In this document: positions 1,459 through 10,057 of the stretch, piece by piece
Position numbering within the stretch: the first letter of the stretch is position 1
Layout: each line of letters starts with the position of its first letter
NCBI GenBank assembly: GCA_021789565.1
Contig: JAJYJL010000171.1
Span: 1 to 10,057 of the forward strand
Direction: 5' to 3'
DNA length: 10,057 bases
Source: Acidobacteriota bacterium
GTDB lineage: Bacteria; Acidobacteriota; Terriglobia; UBA7540
The notes under the pieces: generated by a model
Seen by the model: only the letters and a program-made list of their open reading frames with translations
Database searches by the model: none
What the model was told of the DNA's origin: nothing
Position numbers and translations under genes: made by a program

Positions 1459-4400
1459 ATGGGCAAAAACAACCTGCCGTCACGCCGAAATTTTCTTCGC
1501 ACAGCCTTTGGAACCGCCATCGCAGGAGGCGCGCTGGGCCTGCCTGGTGCTGAAGCTTTCCCGGGCAAACCTGTCCCGCAAACGGCGGATACCACGGTTG
1601 TGGCGCGCGTCACCCTGGACCGCGAGCTTTATGACTCCGGCGCCGCGGTCAACGGAAACATTTCTTTCCGTGTGCCGCCCGCCGGCCAGACGGAAATCGA
1701 ATGGATTGACAGCCTGGGCCGTGTGGCCTGGCGTTCGGCTTTTCCTCCGCCTGCGTCCATGGGCAGCCCTCAACTTTTTTCCTTCCCCCTGGTTCCGGCG
1801 CTGACCTATTGCAACTGGATTCGGCTGAAGGTGAACGGCGTTCCGCAGGTGGAGGGAGCAAAATTTCTCCTCTCACCGCCCGCGCGGGCCTGGGACGACT
1901 ATCACGTGGTGAGCTGGGCCCACTACCCTGACGGTTTTTACGATCTGCTGCGCGAGTGCGGTGTGGACGCCACCATCGCCTACCGCAACGGCGAGTTTTC
2001 AAACGTTCTCGACAACAATTTCAATTTTTACGTCGAGCAGATGGCCTGGGAAGTTTTCGCCATCTACCACAAGGACCAGCCGCTCTGGAAGGGCCTGGTC
2101 GCCGAGGTGCTGCGGGACCGGAACAACCTCAAGCTCTGGGTCCGGCAACCCTGCGTTAACGATCCCAAAACCGACGAGTATGTGCGGGAACATCTCCGGC
2201 AGTACGTGCGCCAACACCGCGCTTTTCGTCCGCTTTTTTACAACATCGCCGATGAGCTGGGCCAGGCCGACCAGATCAAACCCAACGATTTTTGCCACTC
2301 CGAACACTGCACCATCAAGTTTGCGGAATACCTTCGCAAGCTCTACGGAATCCCCGGCCACGTAGCTGGCGAATGGCAGACCGGCGAGGAGATGACGCGC
2401 TGGGACGATGAAAGCGTGCGCTCCGGCACGGAATGGGAAAAGCGCAACCTGATGATTTCCTATACCACTACCGACCGCGCTTTCGACTCCATCGCCCTTG
2501 CCGTCTTCCACGCCAGGTATGGCGGCGTCAAGAACTTCAACAAACAATGGGGCACCAGCTTCCCGGAACCAAGAGGCGTGGGGATGAGCGTGCACGACGA
2601 ATGGGAACCGGTGATCGGCCTGGTCAGTGACGCGCGTTCCATCGTCAACCTGAACGAGGAAGCGTTGTCCGACAAGCTCGGTCCTCTGCCCAGGGCGAAC
2701 GACCGCTGGGGCCGGCGCGCCGGCTGGAAAGCCGTCCAGAAGCCCACCAACTTCCAGACCTGGAGCCAGGTGCTGGATTTTCTGAAGCGCTTCTACAAGG
2801 AACTGGGCGAAGTCCATTCCACCGAGGGCTGGAATGTTTCTGCCTGGTGCGACTTCCGCAACTTCATGGATGAAACGTTTGCCGACGCCATCCTGCGGGC
2901 GGCACGGGTCTGCAAGGAGGAAGACCCCCACGCACTCTGCGCCACCGAGGGCGGGCAGTGCCCGTTTCCATTCGGCTGGTACAACTATGAGCAGGTGCTG
3001 AGGGCGGTGGACGTCATTGAGCCTTACAACATCGGCAACAACGTGGAAGTCATCCGTTCGCTCAAGCCGGAAACCATCATGGTTTCCACCCACGGCTATG
3101 AATACACGCCCGGCAAGCCGCTCACGGCGAAAGACCGCCTGGAGCAAAAACGGGCCGTGCGGCCGATTTGGTGGGGAGTGTTCCATGCCCACCGCGGCAG
3201 CCTGATCTGGGACGACAACCTTAGGAATTACCAGTTTGTTGACGAAAAGACGCGGGATCTGACCCCGGCGGCTGAAACTTTTTCAGAAGTATTCAGAGAC
3301 CTCCATCGGGGCATTCCGAAGCTGGTGATGAACTCGCACCGCACCCATGACGGCATCGCGCTCCACTATTCGCAGCCGTCCATGCAGGTCCACTGGCTGC
3401 TCAGCAACCTGAAGCACGCCCGCCAGTGGGTGGCCCGGAGCGCCGGAGACCGTGGCAGCCACATCACCGCCGTGCGGAACGGCTGGACCAAGCTGATTGA
3501 AGACCTGGGCATGCAGTACAACTTTGTTTCCAACAAGCAGATCGAGGCCGGCAAGCTCGCAAGCGGCGAGTACCGCGCCTTCATCATGCCGCAGTCCCTG
3601 GCCGTCAGCGCGGATGAGGCGCAACAGATTCGACAGTTTGTCCACAGCGGCGGCCTGCTGATTGCGGATTACCGGAACGCCACCATGAATGAGCACGGAC
3701 GCGATCTTGGGCACGGCCAGCTCGACGACGTTTTCGGCATCAGCAGGACCCCGGCATCTGCCGCGGCCGGGCAGCCGGCAACCGCGCAGGGCGTGGCGAA
3801 TGCAGGCTCGCTGGAGCTCGAGGGCAAGGAGCTCAAATTACTGTCGCCGGGCGATCCGGGTGTCAAGGCCGCCACCGGCAAAGCGCTGGCGCAAAGCGGC
3901 GGCACGCCTCTGGTGATCGTCAACACGTTCGGCACGGGAAAGGCGGTTTTTCTGAACCTTGAAATCGCAGGCTATGCCTATCAGCGCCTGCAGGCCAGCC
4001 TGGATACCAGCCTTCCCGACCTCCTGGAAGGGGTGTTGGGCCTTGTCCATATTTCCCCCCGCCTGCGCGTGCTGGGCGCGGACGGCAAGCGCCTGCCGGG
4101 CACGGAAGTGGTGATCTATAAAAACGGCGGATGCGAGCATGTGGCGGTCTTCCGCAATCCACAGTTCGATGACGGAGGATGGGGCAGCTTTCCCACCCTG
4201 GAAGCGCACGAATGGGCCGGAAGCATTGATAACTCCCTGCTTGAAAAGAGCGCCAGGGTCCATCTGGTGTGGGACGCGGCAGGGCAAACGTACGACGTCC
4301 GGCAGAGCAAGGATTTGGGTTCCGTCAAGACCCTGGACGCCACGCTCGATCCCTGGAGCCCTCTGCTCTTGACCCGGTCCGCACAGCCGCTGCCCGAGTT

Positions 4401-4686
4401 TAGGCTCGCCGACCCGGGTGAAATCAAGACGGGTCAAACCTTAAACATCGTCGTTAATGATTTCTCCCCGGTTCCCGAGGGAACGTTTCGCGTTATCAGA
4501 ATAGAAATCGACGATCCCTCGGGAACAACATACGACATCTACTCTCGCAACCTGCTGATCCGCTCAACGCCGTTTCGGGAGAGCATAACCCTGGCGTTCA
4601 ATGACCCAACCGGGGGCTGGAAGATACGGGCGCATGACGTCATGACAGGACAGTCGGTCGAGAAACCCTTCAGCGTGGTTGCCTGA
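1459..4686 (+). CDS. Tat-exported GH42-like (beta-galactosidase-type) protein with trimerisation domain
   Basis: This 1075-residue protein begins with a twin-arginine signal, SRRNFLRTAF at residues 8-17. An Ala/Gly-rich core follows, with a likely cleavage after AEA (residues 31-33), so it probably acts folded outside the cytoplasm. Residues about 40-145 look like a beta-sandwich. Residues about 150-610 look like a GH42-type barrel: NIADELGQ (D265, E266) is a candidate acid/base strand, FNKQWGTSF (360-368) matches the GH42 'N..WgT.F' segment, E497 in ATEGGQ or E521 in DVIEPYN could be the nucleophile, and WWGVFHAHRG starts at 571. Residues about 615-845 match a beta-galactosidase trimerisation domain, with DYRNATMNEHG at 737 and FGTGKAVFLNLEIAGYAYQR near 824-843. 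Residues 985-1075 form a further beta-rich domain. The expected role is cleavage of a beta-linked sugar. Catalytic assignments are by analogy, and the protein could be a divergent or unclassified glycosidase. The downstream ROK and receptor genes support a carbohydrate role. Confidence 0.85.
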   Translation: MGKNNLPSRRNFLRTAFGTAIAGGALGLPGAEAFPGKPVPQTADTTVVARVTLDRELYDSGAAVNGNISFRVPPAGQTEIEWIDSLGRVAWRSAFPPPASMGSPQLFSFPLVPALTYCNWIRLKVNGVPQVEGAKFLLSPPARAWDDYHVVSWAHYPDGFYDLLRECGVDATIAYRNGEFSNVLDNNFNFYVEQMAWEVFAIYHKDQPLWKGLVAEVLRDRNNLKLWVRQPCVNDPKTDEYVREHLRQYVRQHRAFRPLFYNIADELGQADQIKPNDFCHSEHCTIKFAEYLRKLYGIPGHVAGEWQTGEEMTRWDDESVRSGTEWEKRNLMISYTTTDRAFDSIALAVFHARYGGVKNFNKQWGTSFPEPRGVGMSVHDEWEPVIGLVSDARSIVNLNEEALSDKLGPLPRANDRWGRRAGWKAVQKPTNFQTWSQVLDFLKRFYKELGEVHSTEGWNVSAWCDFRNFMDETFADAILRAARVCKEEDPHALCATEGGQCPFPFGWYNYEQVLRAVDVIEPYNIGNNVEVIRSLKPETIMVSTHGYEYTPGKPLTAKDRLEQKRAVRPIWWGVFHAHRGSLIWDDNLRNYQFVDEKTRDLTPAAETFSEVFRDLHRGIPKLVMNSHRTHDGIALHYSQPSMQVHWLLSNLKHARQWVARSAGDRGSHITAVRNGWTKLIEDLGMQYNFVSNKQIEAGKLASGEYRAFIMPQSLAVSADEAQQIRQFVHSGGLLIADYRNATMNEHGRDLGHGQLDDVFGISRTPASAAAGQPATAQGVANAGSLELEGKELKLLSPGDPGVKAATGKALAQSGGTPLVIVNTFGTGKAVFLNLEIAGYAYQRLQASLDTSLPDLLEGVLGLVHISPRLRVLGADGKRLPGTEVVIYKNGGCEHVAVFRNPQFDDGGWGSFPTLEAHEWAGSIDNSLLEKSARVHLVWDAAGQTYDVRQSKDLGSVKTLDATLDPWSPLLLTRSAQPLPEFRLADPGEIKTGQTLNIVVNDFSPVPEGTFRVIRIEIDDPSGTTYDIYSRNLLIRSTPFRESITLAFNDPTGGWKIRAHDVMTGQSVEKPFSVVA

Positions 4687-5053: not shown

Positions 5054-5068
5054 CCTATTATTAATAGG
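5054..5068. repeat. AT-rich inverted repeat CCTATT-ATT-AATAGG
   Basis: Perfect 6-bp arms (5054-5059 and 5063-5068) flank ATT, about 70-80 bases before the ROK start. The site could be an operator. Its right arm is shared with a second possible stem at 5064-5094, so if transcribed the two hairpins would be mutually exclusive. Confidence 0.5.
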
Positions 5069-5136: not shown

Positions 5137-6471
5137 ATGCCTAAAGTCACAAAATTCCAGCCCATCCCTGAGATGGAACTTGCTCCGGGACGCCCTGAAT
5201 TAATACGTGAAGTCAATGTGCGCCGTCTGCTCCGCCTCCTGCAGTTGCACGGCCCGTGTTCGCAGGCTGATCTCGCCCGTATTTCCAGATTGAGTCCTCC
5301 CACGATATCGTTTGCAGTGGCCGACCTGGTGAAGAAGGACCTGGTAGAGAGTGTGGGGCCTGGACGGTCTGATGGTGGTGGCCGTCCGCCGAGAATGCTG
5401 CGATTTAACACCGGGTTCGGTTATGTGGCTGGCGCTGAGGTCAGCCCGTCGGAAGTGCGCCTGGCCCTTGCCGATTTGGGCGGTACGGTTCTGGGGAGAT
5501 GGACCGGCCCAATGGCCTCCCGCGCCACTCCCATGCGCGCAGCCGGCCTGGTAGCGTCAGGCATCCGGGAATTGATGGCCCGGCACGGCATTCCTCTTGA
5601 AAAACTTCTCTCCCTGGCGGCGGGGATTCATGGAATTGTCGACGCGCGGACAGGTACTACCGATTCATTACCGCACTTTTCCTCGGCCTGGCGCCGCACT
5701 CCTCTGCGCGGTCTGCTTGAGGCCAGTGCTAAGGTATCTACGGCCGTTGAAAACGATGTCAACCTGGCCGCCATTGCGGAAAGCTGGATCGGCAGGGCTT
5801 GCGGGGTGAGGAACTTTGTTTTCATAACGGTCGGCGATGGCGTGGGCGCAGGCATCTTTATCAACGGAAGGCTCTATCGCGGATCGGCCTGCGCTTCCGG
5901 CGAGATCGGCTTTTTTTACGTGCCGGGCAGCAGGGAAACCCCTCTACAGAAGCATCAATTAGGTCCCCTGGAGGAGATCGCCAGCACGGCCGGAATAGAG
6001 CGGTCCTGGCGGGAGATGTTAGGGGAAAGTAACGGCTCCAGGAGTAAAGACACCAGGGGTGCAACAACAGAAGAGATTCTCAGGTTCGCCCGGGAAGGCA
6101 ATCGGCAGGCAAAGCGGCTCGTTCAACAATCGGCAAACGCATTTGCATGCGCAGTCACCAATGTCTGCGCGGTCCTGGACTGCCCTCTGGTCGTAGTTGG
6201 AGGCTGTATCGGATCGGACGGGGTGTTCTTCGAACAAGTGCGCCGCCGGCTGGAGCGCAACGATTATCCACGCCCTCAGCTTGCACTGAGCACGCTGGGA
6301 GAAGAAGCCAGCCTTCTCGGCGCGGTCTGGCTGGCCTTAAATTCGGCTGAAAGGATTGTATTACATTCCTCCCTTGGCGGATCGCTTTCACCCACGGATG
6401 GTTCAAATGTTCTGCAACCCTTTCTCGGTCTTGCTTCAAGAAATAAATTCAAAACGCATCCATCAGCTTAA
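5137..6471 (+). CDS. ROK-family transcriptional regulator (NagC/XylR/Mlc type) lacking the zinc motif
   Basis: This 444-residue protein has the length and plan of ROK repressors. A winged helix lies at about residues 27-75 (ADLARISRLSPPTISFAVADLV), followed by a two-lobed sugar-kinase-like domain. Seen there are LADLGG, GIHGIVD, VENDVN (204-209, with D207 at the position of the ROK-kinase catalytic Asp), VGDGVGAGI (232-240) and GEIGF (255-259). ROK proteins normally continue as GEIGH and then CxCGxxGCLE, binding zinc. Here the His is F259, and residues 260-279 (FYVPGSRETPLQKH and on to GPLEE) contain no cysteine. The DNA-binding part looks intact, so the likely role is a ligand-responsive regulator, possibly with altered sugar sensing. 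No clear ribosome site precedes ATG 5137; ATG 5173 (M13) is also possible and has none either, so the start is moderately sure. The receptor gene downstream is the most plausible target. Confidence 0.93.
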   Translation: MPKVTKFQPIPEMELAPGRPELIREVNVRRLLRLLQLHGPCSQADLARISRLSPPTISFAVADLVKKDLVESVGPGRSDGGGRPPRMLRFNTGFGYVAGAEVSPSEVRLALADLGGTVLGRWTGPMASRATPMRAAGLVASGIRELMARHGIPLEKLLSLAAGIHGIVDARTGTTDSLPHFSSAWRRTPLRGLLEASAKVSTAVENDVNLAAIAESWIGRACGVRNFVFITVGDGVGAGIFINGRLYRGSACASGEIGFFYVPGSRETPLQKHQLGPLEEIASTAGIERSWREMLGESNGSRSKDTRGATTEEILRFAREGNRQAKRLVQQSANAFACAVTNVCAVLDCPLVVVGGCIGSDGVFFEQVRRRLERNDYPRPQLALSTLGEEASLLGAVWLALNSAERIVLHSSLGGSLSPTDGSNVLQPFLGLASRNKFKTHPSA

Positions 6472-6548: not shown

Positions 6549-6583
6549 ACCTGCAAATAACCTGCAAATAAAGCTGCAAATAA
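6549..6583 (+). repeat. Three tandem 11-12 bp repeats (ACCTGCAAATA) upstream of a -35 box
   Basis: Units at 6549-6559, 6560-6571 and 6572-6583 share CTGCAAATAA, with cores starting at 6551, 6562 and 6574. The spacing of 11 and 12 bases is about one helical turn, which places the copies on nearly the same DNA face. The array ends 3 bases before TTGACA at 6587, a position typical of an activator site or an UP-like element. Confidence 0.7.
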
Positions 6584-6586
6584 AGC

Positions 6587-6615
6587 TTGACAACCACCCA
6601 TTTCGGTGGTAACCA
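6587..6615 (+). promoter_or_regulatory. Candidate receptor promoter with consensus -35 TTGACA and poor -10
   Basis: TTGACA at 6587-6592 is the full sigma70 -35 consensus. At 17-base spacing the -10 would be TAACCA (6610-6615), a poor match, and no better hexamer lies within 16-18 bases. A weak -10 beside phased upstream repeats and downstream palindromes suggests a regulated promoter, but the -35 match alone could be chance. Confidence 0.4.
6593..6610. repeat. Inverted repeat ACCACC-N6-GGTGGT between -35 and -10
   Basis: Perfect 6-bp arms (6593-6598 and 6605-6610) flank CATTTC, filling the spacer of the candidate promoter. A dimeric regulator bound here would compete directly with RNA polymerase. 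The sequence differs from the neighbouring 23-bp palindrome, so a second regulator is possible. Confidence 0.5.
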
Positions 6616-6621
6616 TGTAGC

Positions 6622-6644
6622 GTTAATTAGGGACCCTAATTAAC
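6622..6644. promoter_or_regulatory. Perfect 23-bp palindrome, candidate operator for the receptor gene
   Basis: Exact 11-bp arms GTTAATTAGGG (6622-6632) and CCCTAATTAAC (6634-6644) flank a central A. It lies just downstream of the candidate -10, where a bound repressor would block initiation. NagC/Mlc-type ROK operators are also long palindromes of about this length with AT-rich outer parts, so the ROK protein encoded upstream is the leading candidate; this is inference. Another dimeric repressor such as a GntR-type protein cannot be excluded. Confidence 0.75.
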
Positions 6645-6893
6645 CCTTCGACTCTAAGTGCTTGTCAAAGTTGGAGGAGGGTTCGCCGCGGGGCGCAAGG
6701 GCATGGGTATTAATCGCAGCAGGATGCTATGACCGCTCAGGCTGTCCTCTCTGCTGTTTCGTATCGGATTTGGGGTACGGATCGCGAGCGCCGCGGGTGA
6801 ATAAACTGTTGATAGCTTTTTTAATTGCGCGTCTCTGACCAGACCACCGATCGTGTGCGGTAGTCACAGGGGAGCCTGCTTTCGCGTCGGGTT

Positions 6894-6908
6894 TGGAAAC
6901 TCTTTCCA
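6894..6908 (+). repeat. Hairpin TGGAAA-CTC-TTTCCA in the receptor leader
   Basis: Perfect 6-bp arms flank a 3-base loop, ending 55 bases before the receptor ATG. It may be an RNA stem or a short protein site. Confidence 0.4.
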
Positions 6909-6963: not shown

Positions 6964-9900
6964 ATGGCAGTCAGGTTAAGCCGTGTATCTGTGGCTTTAT
7001 GTACTTTCTTGCTTGCATCGAGCATGGTCTTGCTTGCCCAGACTCAGTACGGGACCGTGGGGGGGACGGTGACGGACACGAGCAACGCGGTGGTGCCGGG
7101 CGCCCAGGTGACTCTTACAAACACAGCGACGGGCGTACAAAGCAGGACGACAACCTCATCGGTCGGCATTTATCACTTCGGGGCTGTGCCCCTCGGCAAT
7201 TACCAACTGGAAGTCAGCAAGCCGGGCTTTATGCAATGGGCGGGCACGTTTTATCTGGCGGTGGCGCAGCAGGCGACCGTCAACGCAGTGCTGCAAGTCG
7301 GCACGACCCGCCAAACTGTGACGGTCAAAGCGGCTGCCACCCCGATCAATACCACCAGCGGCAGCGTGTCCGACGTGATGAACTCTACGGCGATCCGCGC
7401 CCTGCCCCTGAATGGCCGCGACATCGGGGCACTTTTTAACCTGGTTCCTGGCGTGTCGGGCGGCGCTGGCGGCGCCCGCGTGAACGGCATGAGGGTCGGC
7501 TCTTTGGCTATCAACTACGATGGGACGACCATGGTGGACCGCTTTAACGGCGGGATGATCCGCGTGCATCCCGGAATTGAAACCGTTCAGGAGTTCCGCG
7601 TGAACACTGTGGGTGCGGACGCCAAGTACGATGAGCCGTCCACGGTCACCATGGCGACGCGCAGCGGCACCAACCAAATCCATGGCGCCGCCTACGAATA
7701 CATCCGCGACAACACAGTACTTAGCCCGGCACGCTTGCGGACCGACCCCGTGAACGTGCCCGTGCCGGAACTCATCCGCAACGAGTTTGGAGGCTACCTG
7801 GGCGGTCCCGTGGTGATTCCTCACGTCTACAATGGCAAGAACAAGACGTTCTGGTTTTTTGACTTCGAGGGCTTGCGCGACCATGAGCGCTTTGACCCGT
7901 CCTCCTTTGGCTGGAATGACGTGCCCACGCCGGCCATGTGGAACGGCGATTTGAGCAACGCGGTGGATACCTCGAATCCGTGCCCGGTTTCATCAGCTTG
8001 CCCGCTGGGATTCCAGCCGATTACCATCTATAACCCGACGACCACGGCGGCGACGTACCCCTATCAGCGCACCCCGTACCCGAACAATCAAATCCCGGGG
8101 CCGTTCAATCAAACGGCGAAACTTTTGGCAAGCATGACCGCGCACCCAACGAACAACAACAATCCTTGGATCGCGGATAACTTCTTCCAGACCTATCCCC
8201 AGATCGCGCGCACGAACAACTACACCGCCAAGGTGGACCAAAATATTACCGATAAAGACCGGCTCTCGGTGCGCTACACGCGGAGCAATGAGTTCTCAGC
8301 CGTTGAAGGCGGTTACTTCGCCGATCCTATCGACCCCACGTCCGGGATGGGATCGAGCGCCCGCACGTTTCCCGACACCAATGTCGGCGTGAACTACACC
8401 CGCACCATCTCCCCGACTTGGCTCAACGAATTGGTGGTGGGCGTGCTTCGGGATCCCAATCATTATGGAACTTTGGCTGACATGACCAACTGGGATTCCA
8501 AACTGGGCGTTCCCAATATTTTCGGCGTGACCGGCTGGCCGACGCTGTACACTTGCGAGGATGCCGGCTTCCCCGCCGAGGGCGGCTGCCTTGGATGGGA
8601 TTCAGACAATAACCATCTGCAGCACCTCACCAGCGAGAGTCTCGATGACAACGTCACGTGGGCTCATGGCAAGCACACGATCCAGTTCGGCTTCCAGGGG
8701 CGGATGGAGCAGAACTACATTGCGGAGTTGCAGCAGGCGCAAGGCAGCGACGAATGGGATCCCACCTGGACGGCCCTCTATGACCCGTCGTGCAACTGCG
8801 GGATGTCGGACACGGGCAGCGGATTCGCCCAACTGCTGCTAGGCCTGCCCGACTACCTCTCCAATCAGTACAATCGCGGTTATTTCTATTTCCGCCAGCA
8901 CAGAGTGGATCTCTACGCCCAAGACCAATGGAAAGTCACTCGGCGCCTGACGCTCGACCTGGGGCTTCGCTGGGACTATAACTCGCCTTACACCGAAGCC
9001 CGGAACCGGCTGGTTGACCCTTATAATCCTGAAAGCAGCACGTGGGAGGTCCTTACACCCGACAATCACGATATAAGCACGCTCGGAGCGCCGTCCGCCG
9101 TGATCAACGCCTGGTCGGCTGCCGGCCTCCAGTACGCCACGGCCAGTTCCGTGGGCTACCCGTCAAACCTGTTTCGCTCGATTTACAGTGACTGGGCCCC
9201 GCGTTTGGGATTTGCGTACCGACTCACCAACAAGACGGTTCTGCGCGCATCTTACGGCATCTACCACTTCCCCATGCCACTCAATCTGATCCTCCAAGCC
9301 GCCAGGTCGAATCCGCCACTGAATCTCAGGTACCAGAATCAATACAACCAAAACGGCGCGAATTCCAACTACACTCTCGAGTTCAACCCCGCGACAAACG
9401 ATTACCTCCCGAACGCCCCGGTGCCCCCAGGGTCAGTCAGCAAATATGGCCACACCTCCACTTACTGGGATGGCAACACCTGGAGCAGCGGAAAGTTTCA
9501 GACCTGGAACTTGACGATCGAGCACGAGCTTTTCAGGAACACGATCGCTCGCCTGACCTATGTCGGGACCTGGGGTTCGAACCTGTCCCAGTCGTTCGCA
9601 TATGACTCTTCGGTGCCGGATTTGATTTACGCGCAAAGCACAGGCTTGCTGCCGTCGAGCAACGCCAATCTGCTGAAGCCGAACCCGAACTGGTCGCTGA
9701 TCTCCTACAACACAACCGGCTATTCTCACAACAATTCCGTACAGGCTCAACTCCAGCATAAGCTTTCAACTGGGGTGATGTTCAACGCGTTTTATACTTT
9801 CTCGCGCTTCATGAGCACCGCCGACCCGAGCGGCGGCAGCCTCTTACCCACTAATATTAACAACGGCGGCGGCAGCAGCGGCGGCGGAGCGCAGGTCCCG

Positions 9901-10057
9901 GAAAATTATCAAATCTTGGGCCAGCCCAATCTCACCTACCAGCAACGGTTGCGGCTCGTTTACATGAATAGCACAACGGTTGCACCGCAGGTCTTTACTC
10001 TGGATGGTGTCTTTAATCTTCCCTTTGGGCACGGCAGACACTTTTTCCGGAATATCC
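6964..10057 (+). CDS. TonB-dependent receptor with carboxypeptidase-regulatory-like N-domain (Oar-like), 3'-truncated
   Basis: The frame stays open for 1031 residues to the right edge. A signal peptide covers residues 1-25 (cleavage near LLA/QTQ). A carboxypeptidase-regulatory-like beta domain spans about 29-115 (GTVGGTVTDTSNAVVPGAQV). The plug follows, with ALPLNGRD (146-153), ETVQEFRV and TRSGTNQIHGAAYEY (232-246). The outer-membrane barrel starts near RNEFGGYLGGP (272-282) and KTFWFFDFEGLRD, then alternates aromatic-rich strands and long Asn/Thr/Pro loops, as in Acidobacteriota receptors. A Gly/Ser-rich stretch at 968-975 is probably an external loop. The role is energised uptake or binding of a large ligand, here plausibly a glycan because of the upstream genes; ligand identity cannot be read. 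I see no convincing TonB box. No SusD-like partner is visible, though one could lie downstream. The upstream palindrome and repeats suggest tight regulation. Confidence 0.95.
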   Translation, partial: MAVRLSRVSVALCTFLLASSMVLLAQTQYGTVGGTVTDTSNAVVPGAQVTLTNTATGVQSRTTTSSVGIYHFGAVPLGNYQLEVSKPGFMQWAGTFYLAVAQQATVNAVLQVGTTRQTVTVKAAATPINTTSGSVSDVMNSTAIRALPLNGRDIGALFNLVPGVSGGAGGARVNGMRVGSLAINYDGTTMVDRFNGGMIRVHPGIETVQEFRVNTVGADAKYDEPSTVTMATRSGTNQIHGAAYEYIRDNTVLSPARLRTDPVNVPVPELIRNEFGGYLGGPVVIPHVYNGKNKTFWFFDFEGLRDHERFDPSSFGWNDVPTPAMWNGDLSNAVDTSNPCPVSSACPLGFQPITIYNPTTTAATYPYQRTPYPNNQIPGPFNQTAKLLASMTAHPTNNNNPWIADNFFQTYPQIARTNNYTAKVDQNITDKDRLSVRYTRSNEFSAVEGGYFADPIDPTSGMGSSARTFPDTNVGVNYTRTISPTWLNELVVGVLRDPNHYGTLADMTNWDSKLGVPNIFGVTGWPTLYTCEDAGFPAEGGCLGWDSDNNHLQHLTSESLDDNVTWAHGKHTIQFGFQGRMEQNYIAELQQAQGSDEWDPTWTALYDPSCNCGMSDTGSGFAQLLLGLPDYLSNQYNRGYFYFRQHRVDLYAQDQWKVTRRLTLDLGLRWDYNSPYTEARNRLVDPYNPESSTWEVLTPDNHDISTLGAPSAVINAWSAAGLQYATASSVGYPSNLFRSIYSDWAPRLGFAYRLTNKTVLRASYGIYHFPMPLNLILQAARSNPPLNLRYQNQYNQNGANSNYTLEFNPATNDYLPNAPVPPGSVSKYGHTSTYWDGNTWSSGKFQTWNLTIEHELFRNTIARLTYVGTWGSNLSQSFAYDSSVPDLIYAQSTGLLPSSNANLLKPNPNWSLISYNTTGYSHNNSVQAQLQHKLSTGVMFNAFYTFSRFMSTADPSGGSLLPTNINNGGGSSGGGAQVPENYQILGQPNLTYQQRLRLVYMNSTTVAPQVFTLDGVFNLPFGHGRHFFRNI

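Follow-up and report, generated by a model that had tools for sequence, protein, structure and literature searches.

Several regulators of the ROK family bind sites that are T-rich at the 5′ end and A-rich at the 3′ end (accessible text of PMC4856308). A 25-bp inverted repeat, ACTTattAAAnnnnnTTTaaAAAgt, is reported for the XylR proteins of group 1 from Clostridium acetobutylicum, C. beijerinckii and A. metalliredigens, and the purified XylR of C. acetobutylicum, itself a ROK protein, gel-shifts DNA that carries sites of this type (both in the accessible part of PMC2873477). NagR of Bifidobacterium resembles the arrangement that we propose below in being a negatively acting ROK regulator whose palindromic operators lie near promoter elements of glycan-use genes, and differs from it in that 10 of its 11 operators overlap the −10 or −35 element and in that uptake in this Gram-positive organism is by ABC transporters (accessible text of PMC9599254). 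ROK regulons have also been described in Thermotoga, in an article whose accessible text does not print the motifs (PMC3750489). We found no report in the open-licence literature of ROK control of TonB-type receptors in Acidobacteriota.

The DNA analysed here, which we call the window, is a stretch of 10,057 nucleotides from an acidobacterium. Its genes, all read from the + strand, encode an M28-type peptidase (3–1238, open at its start), a large protein that carries a GH42 trimerisation domain (1459–4686), a ROK-family regulator of 444 aa with a winged helix-turn-helix (HTH) and a ROK domain (5137–6471), and a TonB-dependent receptor-like outer membrane protein composed of a CarboxypepD_reg domain and a beta barrel (6964–10056), which runs off the window and is the presumed regulated gene. 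All of the receptor's domains score above their cut-offs (PF13620, 69.6 bits; PF25183, 467.8 bits; PF00593, 32.5 bits).

The ROK domain of the regulator (PF00480) scores 135.6 bits against a cut-off of 22.9, and three winged HTH families (PF13412, PF12802 and PF01047) exceed their cut-offs near the N-terminus, at 28–74; such a domain is missing from ROK sugar kinases. The protein shares this combination of winged HTH and ROK domain with Mlc, NagC and Lmo0178, aligns with Lmo0178 and Mlc from residue 14–15 over most of its length, and counts Lmo0178, Mlc and XylR among its solved relatives. It stays far below the NCBIfam equivalog cut-offs for NagC (124.3 of 650 bits) and Mlc (118.4 of 530 bits), and it differs from the Mlc/NagC/Lmo0178 type in its presumed target, a TonB-type receptor, and in lacking CxCGxxGC, a zinc motif that is usual in regulators of that type (it is seen in Lmo0178) and that the Pfam family does not demand. 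The same motif is absent from all 120 listed proteins (P0001–P0120, the window's own included). Homologues of the regulator at 84–87% identity are known as proteins (within P0002–P0014); no close orthologue was found in the 28 loci of a contig search or in the 399 genomes described below, where the best match had 52% identity.

The palindrome and the receptor promoter

The 492-bp gap between the stop of the ROK gene and the start of the receptor gene holds, at 6622–6644, the putative operator GTTAATTAGGG-A-CCCTAATTAAC, which has no strand of its own and in which two exact 11-bp arms enclose a single A at 6633, with the operator core TTNNTWARNNNNNYTWANNAA at 6623–6643 inside it. This is the perfect 23-bp palindrome in non-coding DNA that an earlier note on this sequence had described, and no perfect inverted repeat in the window with a spacer of 0–8 is longer, the runner-up having arms of 9 bp. 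The note had also called it very unlikely by chance, which holds for the gap and not for the window at large: under an order-1 Markov model, with any spacer of 0–8, arms of at least 11 bp arose in 3 of 2000 resampled 492-bp gaps and in 2 of 60 resampled whole 10-kb windows. A repeat with 11-bp arms is improbable within the gap, yet not extraordinary across 10 kb, and its occurrence is suggestive rather than decisive. The weight of the argument rests on its position and on its relatives. The core is matched exactly only once in the window, base composition giving an expectation of 0.0013 for the window and 0.00025 for the gap.

No surplus of half-sites marked a second site in the window, which has 12 matches at up to three mismatches, the palindrome's own two arms included, against 13 expected. 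Nor was a further operator site found ahead of the window's ROK gene, where the palindrome CCTATTATTAATAGG at 5054–5068 was rejected as not fitting the core of the operator. A candidate second site at 1247–1267 was also set aside as weak (score 10.8), and by eye it is absent from the L066 and L067 stretches, two related loci discussed below. Rfam returned nothing that reached its gathering score in the window.

The receptor promoter is predicted from a −35 hexamer, TTGACA, at 6587–6592 (+) and a −10 hexamer, TAACCA, at 6610–6615 (+), the latter weak, with 2 of 6 consensus letters, preceded by TGG and spaced by 17 bp; the start of transcription, placed 7 nt past the −10, would be at 6622 (+). 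The palindrome begins on this predicted start and has its centre about 11 nt downstream. The association with the promoter that the earlier note had seen is thereby retained, while its placing of the palindrome just after the −35 region is amended, the site not lying directly behind the −35 but beginning 6 bp past the predicted −10. By eye, GCTTGACA stands ahead of the receptor start in seven of nine related loci (L062–L067 and L071, not L061 or L069), TGGTA lies near the −10 in L063, L064, L065 and L071, and L065 has the same TGGTAACCA downstream of a TTGACA.

A similar geometry is found in related sites. The predicted start precedes the centre by 10–21 nt in 18 of 22 sites, which were picked and oriented by hand; the exceptions are L091 (promoter not found), L084 (+48), L009 (+3) and L090 (+29 by script; by eye, this site overlaps a TTGACA promoter). 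Centres fall at +10 to +15 in the loci of ROK genes like that of the window and, roughly one helical turn beyond this, at +20 to +21 in Granulicella-type loci.

Other repeats surround the promoter. Three tandem copies of approximately CTGCAAATAAAG (6551–6587, period 11–12) end at the −35 box and might serve as an upstream element, for the promoter or for an activator, and an inverted repeat ACCACC-N6-GGTGGT (6593–6610) occupies the −35/−10 spacer. Further downstream, a short block around GCGTCGGG is shared by the leaders of four receptor genes (window, 6878–6905; L066, about 9495; L067, about 8913; L006, about 1974 on the − strand); its match is longest among the window, L066 and L067, its 8-mer is found in unrelated places too, and it may represent a leader RNA element.

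Related sites and their tie to ROK genes

To follow the site beyond the window, we searched 399 genomes of the class of G002 (Terriglobia bacterium), drawn from a larger group; ROK matches at E up to 1e-90 occurred in 18 of them. The conservation upstream of related receptors on which the earlier note had staked its reading was not found for the literal sequence and was found for the core design, tied to ROK genes. The inner 21-mer, with up to three mismatches, was present in 1 of the 399 genomes, against 16 of 399 for its reversed control, and in 0 of 10 genomes in a smaller set. Viral contigs held no exact match to it and no confirmed ROK relatives.

The core design came from L003, L006 and L007, where the promoters close to ROK genes contain TTTGTTAGGAGTCCTTAGTAA, TTTATTAGGAAAGTTAATGAA and TTTTTTAGGAACCTTTAGCAA, which were seen by eye and align to the window site without gaps. 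The shorter motif TTNNTTAGGNNNCCTAANNAA (up to one mismatch) occurs at six places in 40 genomes of the order of G001, its reversed control being commoner (22 places in 17 of the 40), so that the number of sites is not enriched and location alone is telling: three of the six places lie within 2 kb of a ROK orthologue, in G003 (already known from L003) and, newly, in G005 and G002. On a profile built from five sites with the window site excluded, the window site ranks first, at 20.5 against 10.8 for the next in the window, a score that is partly circular because the seed sites were noticed or sought by their resemblance to it; none of 2000 resampled gaps (maximum 16.6) or 300 resampled windows (maximum 16.7) reached 20.5.

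The five-site profile was also applied to 18 further ROK loci. Seven of them have their best site no more than 350 bp from the ROK gene, against 0.82 expected with this limit, which was chosen after the site locations had been seen, and 11 have it elsewhere; a profile from the window site alone likewise gives 7 of 18. The six ROK loci beyond these 18 (L014, L018, L019 and L024–L026) yielded one such site near the ROK gene, in L019. Ten loci that have a receptor but no match to the window's ROK protein reached 6.2–11.1 at best, and equally low scores (7.2–12.1) came from some of the ROK loci that lack a convincing site. The site in L019, a ROK locus from Lentisphaeria, is TTTGTAAGGTGATTTAACAAA at 5726–5746, about 66 bp from the ROK match and with a five-site profile score of 16.8, a hint that this operator design extends to another phylum.

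The tests rest on this profile and on an exact search for the 25-bp pattern ACTTNNTWARNNNNNYTWANNAAGT, which was built from ROK-linked sites. The pattern occurs at 15 places in 15 of the 399 genomes, and the distance to a ROK gene, measured from the ends of tblastn matches, is at most 300 bp at all 15. Seven of these genomes had served in building the pattern (G005, G006, G008, G056, G099, G243 and G386). The eight places outside pattern building (G258, G231, G347, G359, G162, G115, G035 and G049) adjoin a ROK gene without exception, and since the ROK proteins there are 62–67% identical to that of G008, whose site went into the pattern, they are new places of one kindred. The reversed pattern was found at eight places in seven genomes, and none of the eight 3-kb loci contained a ROK match. 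At 11 of the 15 places of the pattern itself, no more than 180 bp separate the site from the start of a receptor match, and a wider search adds a receptor for G056; in G006 another open frame seems, by eye, to intervene, and for G386 and G005 the search near the site detected no receptor. The window site fits the inner core TTNNTWA..TWANNAA exactly, at the fixed spacing, and as a 25-mer lacks the outer AC/GT, having CG first and CC last.

An iterated motif of 30 sites, on which the tests do not rest, admitted sites up to 2500 bp from ROK genes and has the consensus ACTTwnTwArgnnncyTwAnwAAGT, from a list that is biased because proximity to ROK was its entry rule and the window site was included. 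The XylR group 1 operator equals this consensus in length and spacing and has nearly the same half-site (accessible text of PMC2873477). According to the same text, XylR group 1 governs xylose use in Firmicutes; the window site differs from its operator in the outer CG/CC in place of AC/GT, in a GGGACCC centre and in its perfect symmetry. Ten ROK loci, again from a biased list, have an additional site upstream of the ROK gene (G003, G008, G056, G192, G243, G386, G099, G369, G168 and G118).

The presence of the site follows that of the ROK gene and the receptor imperfectly. In favour of the tie, L066 and L067 combine M28 (85%), GH42M (80–82%) and receptor (46–48%) in that order with no ROK match between them and no such site. 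The ROK loci of G001, G044 and G058 yielded neither a convincing site near ROK nor a receptor in the stretch, and in L081, L082, L089 (which begins at a contig end) and L091 a site is present and no receptor was detected in the stretch. The receptor of L087 adjoins ROK, with sites only on the opposite side. The locus of a related ROK gene, L001, carries a perfect palindrome of different sequence, CGGCGATCnnnGATCGCCG, twice (6645–6663 and 12856–12874).

A predicted repressor site at the receptor gene

The palindrome at 6622–6644 is very probably the operator of the adjacent upstream ROK regulator (5137–6471), acting as a repressor site at the receptor gene. The earlier note had nominated it as a candidate operator for this protein, and that nomination is upheld, as a prediction from sequence, by the constant company of ROK genes at the pattern places, new ones included, which the reversed pattern lacks, by the usual position just past a promoter and by the likeness to the XylR operator (accessible text of PMC2873477). 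Relatives carry sites of this design next to their ROK genes, so this would be one more genetic switch of a known kind, newly mapped in the window. A ROK dimer would bind both arms through its winged HTH domains. With the site spanning about +1 to +23 of the receptor promoter, the bound protein would be expected to block transcription initiation or escape, and a sugar-type ligand, perhaps derived from material handled by the locus, may then free the operator and so induce the receptor.

Proteins bound just downstream of a transcription start normally block the polymerase, and the location of the site downstream of the predicted −10, shared in the form of centres past the predicted start by most of the sites compared, makes it quite improbable that the ROK protein, bound to the palindrome, activates the receptor gene or regulates it in both directions, even though ROK proteins may activate or repress (accessible text of PMC9599254). 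We regard it as highly improbable that a different regulator owns the palindrome and that the ROK gene is a bystander; long palindromes are bound by many transcription factors and the exact sequence was not found elsewhere, but every exact match of the related 25-bp pattern in the 399 genomes adjoins a ROK gene, and a ROK protein is reported to bind almost the same motif in gel shifts (accessible text of PMC2873477). A role in RNA, in which a 5′-terminal hairpin would protect or regulate the receptor mRNA, is barely credible: a transcript starting at 6622 would open with a 10-bp stem, but the fold has a z-score of only −1.62 and is equalled by 11 of 200 shuffles, 19 related sites keep the core letters (18 of them exactly) with only 5–8 of 10 pairs, and the site also lies upstream of the ROK gene in the ten loci named above.

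Returning to the ROK protein as repressor at the receptor start, we tentatively extend this reading to the class, as a possibility to which we give somewhat less than even weight. Terriglobia may have class-wide switches of one regulator and one receptor, in which ROK repressors free of the zinc motif, each beside a TonB-type receptor gene, would act on one operator design at the receptor start, a design shared across phyla with clostridial XylR. Receptor candidates numbered 29–207 per genome, on a first look, in the genomes listed, and if the extension is true, ROK–receptor switches of this kind would be a main way for Terriglobia to choose among their many receptors. A defined, though predicted, pair of regulator and operator, together with a searchable pattern, would make regulons and ligands predictable and testable, including those of uncultured lineages.
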